From: Candidatus Gastranaerophilales bacterium
Lineage (GTDB): Bacteria > Cyanobacteriota > Vampirovibrionia > Gastranaerophilales > Gastranaerophilaceae
Length of the DNA stretch: 64,000 bases
Reading direction: 5' to 3'
NCBI GenBank assembly: GCA_944326585.1
Contig: CALVEN010000001.1
Coordinates: 310,001-374,000, forward strand
The translations under genes were made by a program, and so were the position numbers. The notes under the pieces are model-generated. The model saw nothing but the letters and a program-made list of their open reading frames with translations, was not told the DNA's origin and did no database searches. Positions 176-39,328 of this stretch are shown here, piece after piece (the stretch's first letter is position 1; each line of letters starts with the position of its first letter).

Positions 176-401
176 AAAGATACTAAGATACTATGGCAGT
201 AAGGCACTAAGAAGTAACAGAAATGCAAGTCGTCATTACAAGGCCAACAACGAAATTGACAAAGAAGCAAATACAAATTATAATTCTAATATGATGAATT
301 ATAATTTAGAGATGCTGAAACGAGTTCAGCATGACAGCTCAGGGAGCGAAGCTCACAGTAAACACTTAGTGCCTTACTGTCTTAGTAACTTAGTATCTTC
401 T
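176..401. repeat. Inverted-repeat-bounded insert in the 5' part of prepilin 1
   Basis: The left arm (176-214, core AGTAAGGCACTAAG) and right arm (364-401, core CTTAGTGCCTTACT) are imperfect inverted repeats of nearly 40 bases. The reading frame stays open across the insert. Inside lies a small palindrome at 312-335 (TGCTGAAACGAGTTCAGCA). The same arm family bounds the S23 gene at 38155-38598 and the matching insert in prepilin 2, which suggests a shared mobile or recombinogenic origin. Confidence 0.7.
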
Positions 402-7576: not shown

Positions 7577-8533
7577 TTGGGCGGTATATTCTGGGGAAAG
7601 TTACTAAGATACTATGATACTAAGGCACTAAGAAGTAACAGTCGGATTAGTAAATCCGACCTACAATATGTCATCCTGAACTTGTTTCAGGATCTCAAAA
7701 ACAATGTGAAGCCCCTCTCCCCCTTGGGGAGAGGGTGTCACGAAGTGACGGGAGAGGGGCTAAGTGGCAAAAATGTGAGCGAAGCCCACAGTAAACACTT
7801 AGTGCCTTACTGTCTTAGTAACTTAGTATCTTCTAAAAAAATTGCCTTTACCTTAGCGGAGGTTTTAATAACCCTCGCCATAATAGGTATAGTAGCTGCG
7901 ATGACTATTCCGACGCTTGTCGCCAAGTATCAGGAAAAGGTAATGGTAACAAAAGTTAAACAGGCTCATTCGCAGTTGATGAATGCAATACAGCTATATG
8001 TGGCAAAAAATAATTGTCAGAATATGCTTTGTTTATTTGATACGAATAAGACATCAGATGAGGTTATAGCGGAACTGGCGACTGTTGTCAGAAAAGCAAA
8101 AGTATGCAAAGAAGGTGATACTGAAAAGGCTTGTAAGTATTATGGTTTGAAAGATAATAAGCCTTCATATAAAGTGGATGGAGTTTATGCCTCAAGTGAC
8201 GGAATTACTACTAATGGTCGTATGTATTTGCCAAATGGTATGATATTTCAAGTGCGTCAGCGGTCTCAATGTCCGCGTACACTGGAAACAATAATACGAG
8301 ATGAAAACGGTTATGAGATTGATAGAATTGAACAAATTAGTCATTCTTGCGCAGTTGTCTATTTTGATGTGAATAATACGCAAGGTCCGAATCAATTCGG
8401 GGCTGACGTATATCGGTATAATGTTCAGGATACGGGGAAAATAGTGCCTGGTGACAAAAAACTATTAAACAATGCACTTTTGTATAATAAAATAGAATAT
8501 ACACCGTACAATATCGGAGATCCGGTTGAATAA
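7577..8533 (+). CDS. Type IV/type II secretion prepilin-like protein, copy 2
   Basis: It closely resembles the prepilin at 291-1097, with KKIAFTLAEVLITLAIIG, GPNQFGADVYRYN and a matching C-terminal tail. No in-frame ATG exists between the G9 tract and the prepilin motif; only TTG and GTG codons without RBS are available. This supports the leader ATG at 7512, reached by a +1 slip, as the real start. TTG 7577 is given as the current open frame. About 90 residues of insert precede the cleavage site, including translated palindromes that differ from those in copy 1. A terminator follows immediately. Confidence 0.82.
   Translation: MGGIFWGKLLRYYDTKALRSNSRISKSDLQYVILNLFQDLKNNVKPLSPLGRGCHEVTGEGLSGKNVSEAHSKHLVPYCLSNLVSSKKIAFTLAEVLITLAIIGIVAAMTIPTLVAKYQEKVMVTKVKQAHSQLMNAIQLYVAKNNCQNMLCLFDTNKTSDEVIAELATVVRKAKVCKEGDTEKACKYYGLKDNKPSYKVDGVYASSDGITTNGRMYLPNGMIFQVRQRSQCPRTLETIIRDENGYEIDRIEQISHSCAVVYFDVNNTQGPNQFGADVYRYNVQDTGKIVPGDKKLLNNALLYNKIEYTPYNIGDPVE
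7597..7834. repeat. Inverted-repeat-bounded insert in the 5' part of prepilin 2
   Basis: The left arm (7597-7634, beginning AAAGTTACTAAGATACTA) and right arm (7797-7834, the same sequence as in copy 1) are inverted repeats. Inside are a perfect hairpin at 7641-7660, a CATCCTGAA-type palindrome at 7670-7696 and a CCCCTCTCC/GGAGAGGGG palindrome at 7710-7761. The arms match copy 1 and the S23 element; the cargo differs. Confidence 0.7.
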
Positions 8534-27551: not shown

Positions 27552-30556
<3,005 letters not shown>

Positions 30557-35959: not shown

Positions 35960-38116
35960 TTAGCAAGAGCAAGCAGCGCATTCACAAGCCAGAACTTCTT
36001 TAGCTTCTGTCATTCTGACCTTAATTCTGCCGTCAACTGCAATGCCTTCGCCAGTTTTTTCACTGATTAACAACGGGTTAATATCAAGTTCATCAATGAA
36101 TTTGAAATCATTAACCAATTGTGACAAACGAAGAAGAGTTTCTTCAATTTGATCCATATCAGCAGGTTTTGTTCCTCTTGCGCCCTGGAGTAATTTGTAT
36201 GCCTTAACTGATTTAACCATTTCTTTTGCGTCTTGATCAGTCAAAGGTGCAATTCTGAAAGTTACGTCTTTCAACGCTTCAACAAACACACCGCCGAGTC
36301 CGAACATCATCATCGGACCGTATTGAGGATCTGTTGCAATACCGCAAACCATTTCGCGGTTGCCTTTTACCATTTCCTGAATAATTACGCCTTCAAGTCC
36401 TTCAATAAGTCCTTTTTCGGTTAATTTTTCAATCAGGTCTTTGTATTCTGCACGGAGTTGTTCTTCTGATTGGATGTTTACTCTAACACCGCCAACATCG
36501 GTTTTATGGGATGTTGTTTTGGAGGTCATTTTCATAACAACAGGGTATCCGATTGAGTTGCCAAGTGTTACGACTTCTTCTTCATTTGTTGCAAGACCGT
36601 ATTTGCAAGCTCTGATGCCATATGCTTGTAAAACATCAATTGATTCCAGAGTTGTTAATTGATCGCGACCTTCAGCAAGTGCGGCTTTGATGATTTTTTC
36701 AACTTTAGCTTTGTCAACATCGTAGCATGGAACTTTGCCTTGAGGTCTTTCCATCCAGAGTCTTTGTTGATTTAATCTGTTGAATCCGTCAGCAGCTTCT
36801 TCTGCGTACATAAAGAACGGCATGTTAACTTTCATATCGGAAAGTTTTGTAAAGAATTCGTTCTTAGTCATAAATACGCCGATAACAGGTTTGTGCGGAT
36901 ATTGTTCTTTAATTTCCATAACAGCTTTTGCCACGTCAATATCTTTCAAGCCCAAGAACGGCAGGTAAATTACCATAATCATATCAACATTTTCATCGGC
37001 AATAACCGTTTCAAGAGTTTGTTTATAGTGTTCAATAGGCGCTGATGCAATCATGTCAATCGGGTTTTTAACGGATGCTGCAGAGGGCAGGAAGCTTCTC
37101 AATTTTTCTTTTGTAGCATCTGAAATTTTAGCCATTTGCATTCCGTATTCGCAAACCGCGTCTGTTGCCATAATGCCCGGGCCGCCTGAGTTTGTGATGA
37201 TAGCTACTCTGTCACCTTTTGGAATAGGGCAGTTAGCAAAAACTTTTGCTGTTGCAAAAAGGTTTTTCAAAGAGTATTCTCTGATTACGCCTGATTGCTG
37301 CAAAAGTGCATTTGCTGCTTTATCAGCGCCCGCTAAGGAACCTGTGTGTGAAGATGCGGCTGATGCACCGGCTGCGGATCTTCCTGCTTTTAATGCCAAA
37401 ATCGGTTTTTTCTTAGAAATTCTTGATGCTAAGTTTCTGAAATTAGACGGATTTTGAATTGATTCCATATAAAGAAGAATTTGTTCAACGTCATCTTCAT
37501 TTTCCCAGTATTCCATTGCTGTTTCTGCGTTAACATCAGCCTGGTTGCCGATTGAAATAAATTGAGCAAAACCTAAATTTAAGTCTTTCAATATATTCAA
37601 GATACCGCCGCCCAGAGCGCCTGACTGTGATACAAAACCGATGTTGCCTCTCTCAGGTAAAGATTCTGCAAAACATCCGTCCATTCTGATATCAGGGTGA
37701 GTGTTTACAACACCAAGGCAGTTCGGACCAACGCATCTCATGCCGTATTCTCTGACTTTTGCGAGCAATTGTTTTTCAGCTTCAGCACCTTCGGCACCTG
37801 TTTCTTTAAATCCTGCAGTGATTATGCAAAGTCCTTTAATGCCTTTTTCATGGCATTGATCAATTGTATCAAGTACAAATTTTGCATTTACGACTATAAT
37901 TGCAAGGTCAACTTCTCCGGGGATTTCCAAAACGGAGGTGTAAGCCTGCAATCCTTCAATTATCCCGCCTTTCGGGTTTACCGGATAAATTTTTCCGTTG
38001 AAGTTGTATTCCTGTAATCTTTTCATCAAATCGGAACCGATGGTGTGTTCTTTTGTTGACGCACCGATTACCGCGATTGATTTCGGTTTCATAATTTTGT
38101 CTAAATTGCTGCTCAT
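35960..38116 (-). CDS. Acetate-CoA ligase (ADP-forming), fused alpha and beta domains
   Basis: It has 718 residues and interconverts acetyl-CoA (or another acyl-CoA) plus ADP and phosphate with the acid, CoA and ATP, an energy-conserving step in fermenters. The order is a CoA-binding domain (SIAVIGASTKEHTIG), succinyl-CoA ligase-like domains with the phospho-His region AASSHTGSLAG near 255, and a C-terminal ATP-grasp beta domain (GYPVVMKMTSKTTSHKTDVG). The C-terminus is Cys-rich (ACECAACSC). AAGGA precedes the ATG. It fits a fermentative gut lifestyle. Confidence 0.93.
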   Translation of the reverse strand: MSSNLDKIMKPKSIAVIGASTKEHTIGSDLMKRLQEYNFNGKIYPVNPKGGIIEGLQAYTSVLEIPGEVDLAIIVVNAKFVLDTIDQCHEKGIKGLCIITAGFKETGAEGAEAEKQLLAKVREYGMRCVGPNCLGVVNTHPDIRMDGCFAESLPERGNIGFVSQSGALGGGILNILKDLNLGFAQFISIGNQADVNAETAMEYWENEDDVEQILLYMESIQNPSNFRNLASRISKKKPILALKAGRSAAGASAASSHTGSLAGADKAANALLQQSGVIREYSLKNLFATAKVFANCPIPKGDRVAIITNSGGPGIMATDAVCEYGMQMAKISDATKEKLRSFLPSAASVKNPIDMIASAPIEHYKQTLETVIADENVDMIMVIYLPFLGLKDIDVAKAVMEIKEQYPHKPVIGVFMTKNEFFTKLSDMKVNMPFFMYAEEAADGFNRLNQQRLWMERPQGKVPCYDVDKAKVEKIIKAALAEGRDQLTTLESIDVLQAYGIRACKYGLATNEEEVVTLGNSIGYPVVMKMTSKTTSHKTDVGGVRVNIQSEEQLRAEYKDLIEKLTEKGLIEGLEGVIIQEMVKGNREMVCGIATDPQYGPMMMFGLGGVFVEALKDVTFRIAPLTDQDAKEMVKSVKAYKLLQGARGTKPADMDQIEETLLRLSQLVNDFKFIDELDINPLLISEKTGEGIAVDGRIKVRMTEAKEVLACECAACSC

Positions 38117-38154
38117 TGTTTAGTCCTTTCTTTTATACATTTATATTATATATC

Positions 38155-38598
38155 AAAGTTACTAAGATACTAAGGCACTAAGTTACTAAGTTCTTATCAT
38201 TAAGTTGTTTTTCATAATATTTTGCAAGTCCGATTAGCAAAGCTCTAACCTTAGAAATTTGTTGTTCTATAGTATCATAATTATTTATAAAATTAAGATT
38301 TTGGGATATAAGCATTTGAGTATCCAGTTCAGCTAAGGAACCCAGAGCAATATCCAAAAATCTTAAAGATTCTTTGTCCGAATGTTTTACAGAGCCTTCT
38401 GCAATGTTTGAAGGAATAGAAATAACAGATCTTCTTAGTTGATTTGTTAATCCAAAAAGTTCAGATTGAGGATATGTTTCTGTAATTTTATAGATATCAG
38501 TTACAAGCTTTATAGATTCTTTCCAAACTTCCATATCTTTGTAATACATCTTTTATCCTTTGTCTTAGTGCCCTAGTGCCTTAGTATCTTAGTAACTT
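38155..38598. repeat. Inverted-repeat element carrying the S23 gene
   Basis: The left arm (38155-38190, AAAGTTACTAAGATACTAAG...) and right arm (38564-38598) share about 24 of 25 bases in inverted orientation. The S23 stop codon lies within the left arm and the next gene's stop codon abuts the right arm. The same arm family bounds the inserts in prepilins 1 and 2. Confidence 0.78.
38178..38549 (-). CDS. Four-helix-bundle protein of the S23/IVP family
   Basis: It has 123 residues. MYYKDMEVWKESIKLVTDIY, SELFGLTNQLRRSVISIPSN, IAEG and the LRFLDIALGSLAELDTQ block are diagnostic of the family once called 23S rRNA intervening sequence protein. Family members are found inside rRNA intervening sequences and as free-standing genes; the biochemical role is unknown. 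Here the gene is free-standing but sits inside a pair of inverted repeats, with arm sequence supplying its last codons. Confidence 0.92.
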   Translation of the reverse strand: MYYKDMEVWKESIKLVTDIYKITETYPQSELFGLTNQLRRSVISIPSNIAEGSVKHSDKESLRFLDIALGSLAELDTQMLISQNLNFINNYDTIEQQISKVRALLIGLAKYYEKQLNDKNLVT

Positions 38599-39216
38599 TT
38601 ATTCGTATCCGTTTTCTATCCATTCGCGAACTCTGAGTGTTGCGCCGAGTTCTTTGGCAATATTGTTGCAGGCTTCTATATCCAGATGTCTGCCTTTGTA
38701 GCCTTCCACAATTGTTGCAATTGTTTTAATTCCTGCATCTGATGAGGCTTTTATGAATTTTTTAACTTCATCGTAAGCACCTTTAAATGAGGGTTTGGAC
38801 AGTTCATTATATTCTTCTTCCGTCGCGCCGTTTAAGCTTACGGAAATTGTATCAATCAACCCCTTTAATTCTTCGCATACATTTCTTTTATAAACGAAAT
38901 TTGCGTGTCCGTTTGTATTGATGCGAAGTTTGATATCAGGGTGTTTTTCTTTAATATATTCTGCAATTTCTTTTAAAATATCAAGTTTTAATAACGGTTC
39001 ACCATAACCGCAAAAGGTGATTTCTTGTGATAACGGCAGCTCTTCAATTTGTTCAATCACATCTTGTGCCGTGAAGTTTTCGCTGTCAAGCCACATATTT
39101 TTGCCGCAGACATCGTCTTTGTCGTTTCGCAGACAAAAAATACAGGAATTTGTACATCTGTTGGTTAAATTTATATAAATTTTGCCGTCTAATAAGTATG
39201 CAAGAGTGTTTGACAT
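38599..39216 (-). CDS. Radical SAM protein, TatD-associated type
   Basis: It has 205 residues. CTNSCIFC near residue 20 provides the cysteines for the 4Fe-4S cluster; ITFCGYGEPLL and LRINTNGHAN follow as in the small TatD-linked radical SAM family. No tatD is next to it here. ATG 39216 is used because AAGGG lies five bases upstream; a start 12 codons further up lacks support. The substrate is unknown. The stop codon is directly against the S23 element. Confidence 0.85.
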   Translation of the reverse strand: MSNTLAYLLDGKIYINLTNRCTNSCIFCLRNDKDDVCGKNMWLDSENFTAQDVIEQIEELPLSQEITFCGYGEPLLKLDILKEIAEYIKEKHPDIKLRINTNGHANFVYKRNVCEELKGLIDTISVSLNGATEEEYNELSKPSFKGAYDEVKKFIKASSDAGIKTIATIVEGYKGRHLDIEACNNIAKELGATLRVREWIENGYE

Positions 39217-39328
39217 GTCGTCCCTTCTAATACTTATATTATTGCACGTCAAAATATTTTTACAAGGAGATTTTTGCTGGACACAGCCTTAATTTTTATG
39301 TTATAAATGAATCTGAGGAGAAAAATTT

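Follow-up and report, generated by a model that had tools for sequence, protein, structure and literature searches.

What is a gene of the S23 family doing between near-perfect inverted repeats, in a spacer between two protein genes? The question is raised by positions 38,155 to 38,598 of a 64,000-nucleotide (nt) stretch of Candidatus Gastranaerophilales bacterium (GenBank assembly GCA_944326585.1, contig CALVEN010000001.1, positions 310,001 to 374,000, forward strand; hereafter, the window), which an earlier note had read as a small transposable unit consisting of two arms and an S23 gene. To our knowledge, S23/IVP proteins have no known function. We found that this locus is one case of a much wider pattern: S23 genes are flanked on either side by an array whose 7-8-nt unit, as a rule repeated at least four times, is private to the gene in question. 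Our data support both this association and the mobility of the resulting "S23 cassette", the latter on the strength of its distribution.

The cassette of the window and its dispersed arrays

The cassette and its two host genes comprise the following features.

38178..38549, minus strand: S23 (23S_rRNA_IVP, four-helix-bundle) gene, 123 amino acids (aa), ATG start; PF05635, E 2.6e-34
38152..38190, plus strand: arm downstream of S23, AAG TTACTAAG ATACTAAG GCACTAAG TTACTAAG; repeat search, period 8
38564..38602, minus strand: arm upstream of S23, inverted AAG TTACTAAG ATACTAAG GCACTAGG GCACTAAG, pointing to the gene; period 8
38550..38563, minus strand: ribosome-binding-site-like AAAGGA between the upstream array and the S23 start, from sequence
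38599..39252, minus strand: upstream host gene, radical SAM (PF04055); boundary from empty sites
35960..38116, minus strand: downstream host gene, acyl-CoA synthetase (NDP-forming)-like ATP-grasp (PF13549, PF13607)

The arms are 39 nt each and 90% complementary, including 26 nt of perfect match, slightly above the 24 of 25 bases that the earlier note had counted. They are not plain inverted repeats: each is an array of the octamer NNACTAAG, the two being inverted relative to one another. The note was also right about the arms' contacts with genes, as the final codons and stop of S23 (38178-38180) lie inside the downstream arm and the radical-SAM stop (38599-38601) is situated at the outer edge of the upstream arm. 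As RNA, the cassette folds with -119 kcal/mol (z = -8; 0/100 shuffles equally good), and the predicted stem of the arms is 28 bp long.

Family membership of the protein is clear, with a PF05635 match of 118.1 bits against a curated cut-off of 33.8. A structure model (mean predicted local confidence, pLDDT, 95.5) gave the four-helix bundle of the solved S23 structures 2gsc and 2rld, with a template modelling (TM) score of 0.87 to 2gsc; it also resembles Avd (4dwl, TM 0.76), whose homology to PF05635 has been noted (PMC10053308). The ratio of nonsynonymous to synonymous substitution rates (dN/dS) of S23 is 0.04-0.17, indicating purifying selection. PF05635 is the sole Pfam domain of the gene, and the cassette contains no transposase (no Y1/HUH domain).

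When the cassette was used as a query on its own genome, the arms, not the gene, recurred at scores of places, a dispersal that the earlier note had not seen. The pattern CTAAGNNACTAAGNNNCTAAG, with one mismatch allowed, gave 80 + 72 matches in 1.7 Mb, and the reversed control gave 0; this genome holds only one S23 gene. Among the 68 arrays of at least three units in the regions around the repeats, 59 had four units and 9 had three. Arrays often stand alone, with no partner, and many of the dispersed copies belong to mosaic repeats that include other sequences resembling repetitive extragenic palindromes (REPs). Two such mosaic elements lie in the window, with the following array ends.

183..211, plus strand: dispersed octamer array, left end of first mosaic element
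365..401, minus strand: dispersed octamer array, right end of first mosaic element
7604..7632, plus strand: dispersed octamer array, left end of second mosaic element
7798..7834, minus strand: dispersed octamer array, right end of second mosaic element

Mosaic elements of this kind, 0.2-0.5 kb long with octamer arrays at both ends, precede coding sequences for prepilin-like KKAAFTLAE proteins (window 183-401 and 7604-7834; L011, L015, L017, L020, L024).

One S23, one unit

A survey that started from 80 S23 loci of many phyla, nearly all with short arrays on both flanks, was extended to 185 loci from Bacteroidota, Cyanobacteria, Proteobacteria, Clostridia and others. In a two-sided test, which asks for the same 7-8-nt unit on both flanks above a shuffle-based threshold, 148 of the 185 loci (80%) passed: 120 with inverted arrays, 24 with direct arrays and 4 with both. 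Only 16/247 control open reading frames (ORFs) did so (about 6%). The rate was similar in the survey (74/85) and in a second set made up of the S23 genes of seven genomes (48/58), a few loci being in both. The median inverted flank score was 16.5, whereas mismatched pairs (p about 1e-39) and control ORFs both gave 8.0, and flank periodicity was in excess at periods of 7 and 8 and at twice these values. The arrays are also oriented: at inverted loci the G-richer strand points to the gene in 113/117 cases (113:4, p = 9e-29). All 12 cyanobacterial plasmid S23 genes inspected lie between heptamer arrays, and 11 pass the test; the weakest group is the Xanthomonas family, where 15/30 pass and the failures mostly have a one-sided array. 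On two plasmids, Anabaena sp. 90 pANA02 (L259) and Pseudanabaena pPg_01 (L260), the cassette sits between cas6 and cas4.

The unit follows the protein. Paralogues within one genome (up to 16) carry differing units, each usually the same left and right. Period 7 versus period 8 clusters on the S23 protein tree, with 9 changes versus 20.5 when shuffled (0/500). Among pairs of loci with no neighbour gene in common, the more alike the proteins, the more alike the arms (rho 0.116, 0/500), and at a protein similarity of at least 0.7 (12 pairs, unshared sites) 83% have high arm scores, versus a background of 2-3%. Because this correlation holds at unshared sites, the arms travel with the gene, as would be expected of the mobile unit that the earlier note had in mind. 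The stronger correlation within the Xanthomonas family (rho 0.63) was not counted towards co-mobility, because almost every similar pair there has neighbour genes in common. Genome-wide counts in other phyla follow the same lines: GTGANC arrays matched 95, 21 and 35 times in three genomes whose S23 carries GTGANC, and also 60 times in a clostridial genome, versus 13 times in Geobacter and 0-3 times in the remaining genomes, and GGGANTC arrays numbered 165 and 17 in two genomes with a GGGANTC-bearing S23, versus 0 in seven others.

We know of no origin or partner for the heptamer arrays of cyanobacteria, Xanthomonas and Beggiatoaceae. The arrays at cyanobacterial plasmid S23 genes look like short tandemly repeated repetitive (STRR) sequences, presumably of the named STRR classes. 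In Luteimonas, an S23 gene between accB-like and accC-like genes (names from sequence) begins inside a GGGAATC array, such that its N-terminus, MENRES, is encoded by ATGGAGAATCGGGAATCG. XCC0516, the X. campestris S23 solved as 2gsc, also starts with MENRES, and this common start suggests that a GGGAATC array may stand there too. At L107 and other Xanthomonas-family loci, many S23 frames extend through the upstream array, so that N-terminal residues (MENRES) can be read from it. That X. campestris genome is reported to hold 186 GGGAATC arrays, mostly of four units, with 70 inverted-pair cases, in a study that does not mention S23 (PMC4692102). The TAACTGA arrays of a Beggiatoaceae genome are likely a further case of the S23 type; most of them stand directly 5' of start codons, and an unknown regulator has been proposed to act at them (PMC4679880). 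We found no open-access paper that ties S23 to such arrays. S23 looks like the protein partner of the orphan heptamer arrays of cyanobacteria and Xanthomonas.

Filled and empty sites within the genus

The earlier note had proposed looking for empty sites in relatives and for the cassette at other loci, and both are found. At the radical-SAM/acyl-CoA synthetase site, the cassette is present in the window genome (G000) and in G009. The other readable genomes have an empty site or a footprint: the left arm in G012, the right arm in G013 and one unit each in G002 and G008, with a clean spacer in G003, G005, G006, G007, G014 and G015. The spacer between rimP and nusA measures 25-29 nt in six species. 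In G009 and G013 it houses an S23 cassette with arms of the AATAAG kind, in G001 and G014 one with arms of the GTTAAG kind, and in G000 and G002 an insert unrelated to these; every one of these inserts begins at an identical position behind the rimP stop. Before groEL, G014 has another S23, this one with GTGACCAAG-type arms. S23 itself is sporadic, exceeding the cut-off in 7/40 relatives. We did not find the fixed synteny with unconserved arms that the note had named as speaking against its claim.

The unrelated rimP-nusA insert of G000 (L243:950-1240) carries a GIY-YIG gene of 96 aa, flanked by REP-like GTCATTCTGAGCGAAGCGAAGAATCT sequences, and that of G002 is similar; it is possibly a second repeat-associated gene, and rimP-nusA possibly an insertion hotspot. 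At L039 (G013), the upstream arm and the S23 start occur as a tandem repeat of ~82 nt, so that one end of the cassette is partly duplicated.

Proposed mechanism, rival explanations and known systems

Our results suggest that the S23 cassette is a small mobile element, in which one S23 gene with two private arrays steers its own spread through array recognition; we give this proposal an even chance. The window S23 is probably a homopentamer, because both solved relatives have five chains (2gsc and 2rld, five each; the S23 pentamer is cited in PMC4990558). Such a pentameric ring would recognise the tandem units of its own array, and this recognition would govern how solo arrays, and less often the entire cassette, spread, in the manner proposed for REP-associated tyrosine transposases (RAYTs) and REPs. 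Since S23 is without a recognisable catalytic domain, the host would supply strand transfer, through template switching, annealing or a reverse transcriptase as with Avd. The earlier note's small transposable unit therefore stands as far as distribution goes; with no transposase in the cassette, "transposable" is left without a known mechanism. More broadly, and with somewhat less assurance, we propose that S23 proteins form a large family of sequence-specific readers of short tandem units, each with its private unit, that drive the spread of heptamer and octamer arrays across bacterial genomes without a transposase.

Several observations weigh against this proposal. The two genus sites leave gain versus loss unpolarised, and no target-site duplication could be defined. 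The two-sided test is failed by 37/185 loci, including 15 of the 30 in the Xanthomonas family, many of them with a one-sided array. G012 has 112 octamer matches and no S23, so that arrays can be kept where the gene is absent, and the clostridial genome with 60 GTGANC matches holds 16 S23 genes, to none of which the array has been matched so far.

Might the cassette instead act at the level of RNA? The earlier note had pointed to intervening sequences (IVSs) of rRNA, which can harbour S23 genes and whose ends pair into a stem. The 23S gene of the window gives this link no support.

27552..30556, plus strand: 23S rRNA gene, full length (Rfam RF02541 1-2925/2925), without an S23 intervening sequence

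Nor does any S23 gene among the loci tested lie in rRNA; we also found no match to S23 in phages. In an IVS-like element outside rRNA, pairing of the arms within the operon transcript would give a stem for RNase III to cleave, as it does when excising the Coxiella IVS (PMC4990558), and S23 would bind or protect the RNA. The 28-bp stem of the window (z -8), the inverted arms at 120/148 armed loci and the mostly co-directional neighbours (61/76 survey loci with both neighbours classed) fit such an element. It is hard to reconcile with the common unpartnered solo arrays and with S23 loci that are antisense to both neighbours, and we consider it unlikely. A paired stem is predicted for the cassette of the window; as a general rule, an RNA stem is ruled out by the direct arms at 24/185 loci. 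A regulatory role, with S23 binding the array before its own gene (autoregulation) and those before other genes, would make the dispersed arrays a regulon and not a side effect of mobility. The upstream array does stand directly before the ribosome-binding site, the Beggiatoaceae arrays lie just 5' of start codons (PMC4679880), and S23 is under purifying selection. A regulator gives no reason for a downstream array of the same unit, which is the rule, and fits poorly with the sporadic S23 and with Xanthomonas arrays that occur on both strands, the long ones at differing genes in two species (PMC4692102); we judge it quite improbable.

The arrays could also arise from slippage or another repeat system, with S23 a passenger without a role. 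Although arrays without S23 exist (G012) and those of the window genome also occur inside mosaic repeats with other REP-like sequences, a passenger would not be expected to have a private unit matching on both flanks, an array that tracks the protein at unrelated sites, conserved polarity and dispersed copies of fixed four-unit size, and we regard this explanation as very unlikely. Hardly any credence is due to mobilisation of the arrays in trans by an IS200/RAYT-type (Y1) transposase. G000 does have one Y1 gene, and the layout resembles a RAYT between inverted REPs (PMC2817692); Y1 was not found in G009 (148 octamer matches) and is present in G003, G013 and G015 (0 matches each). A Y1 transposase was rejected as the driver, as its presence does not track array number.

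If the S23 cassette is indeed a mobile element that spreads by array recognition, one answer would serve both for the function of S23/IVP proteins and for the origin of STRR-type heptamer arrays, and the link between the two can be put directly to the test. Should every S23 read a 7-8-nt unit of its own, the many natural protein-unit pairs would constitute a recognition code carried by a protein of 120 residues; should recognition spread cassettes without a transposase, it would be a new route by which a repeat colonises genomes.

Among known systems, REP-RAYT is closest in layout: one gene lies between inverted copies of a genome-dispersed repeat, repeat and protein co-evolve, and each gene has its own repeat (PMC2817692). 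The S23 cassette has the inverted flanks, at the window and at 120 of the 148 armed loci, and the dispersal of the repeat in the same genome. It differs in that S23 lacks an HUH/tyrosine domain, its arms are direct at 24/185 loci, its units are far more changeable, and its repeats are tandem arrays of 7-8-mers. The 23S rRNA IVSs with an S23 ORF (Leptospira, Coxiella) share the protein family, a length of about 0.4-0.5 kb and pairable ends; unlike them, the cassettes described here lie between protein genes, and they end in iterated arrays that recur at other places in the genome. Avd of diversity-generating retroelements (DGRs) is alike in fold, but acts with a reverse transcriptase. Neither a DGR reverse transcriptase nor template and variable repeats were found beside the window S23, which adjoins the radical-SAM and acyl-CoA synthetase-like genes, and the three Avd-like homologues scored (L044, L049, L050) have no arms. 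Cyanobacterial STRRs and the heptamer arrays of Xanthomonas (GGGAATC) and Beggiatoaceae (TAACTGA) are the same kind of array and likewise mostly intergenic; those of Xanthomonas are mostly of four units and often in inverted pairs (PMC4692102), and S23 genes lie between those of cyanobacteria. The papers that describe such arrays (PMC4692102, PMC4679880) name no S23 partner, which we propose here. By analogy, then, the S23 cassette would work like REP-RAYT, yet outside that family and outside rRNA IVSs. Its parts are known and its layout is REP-RAYT-like; neither a RAYT transposase nor an rRNA location, the defining features of the two systems, was found when each was tested.
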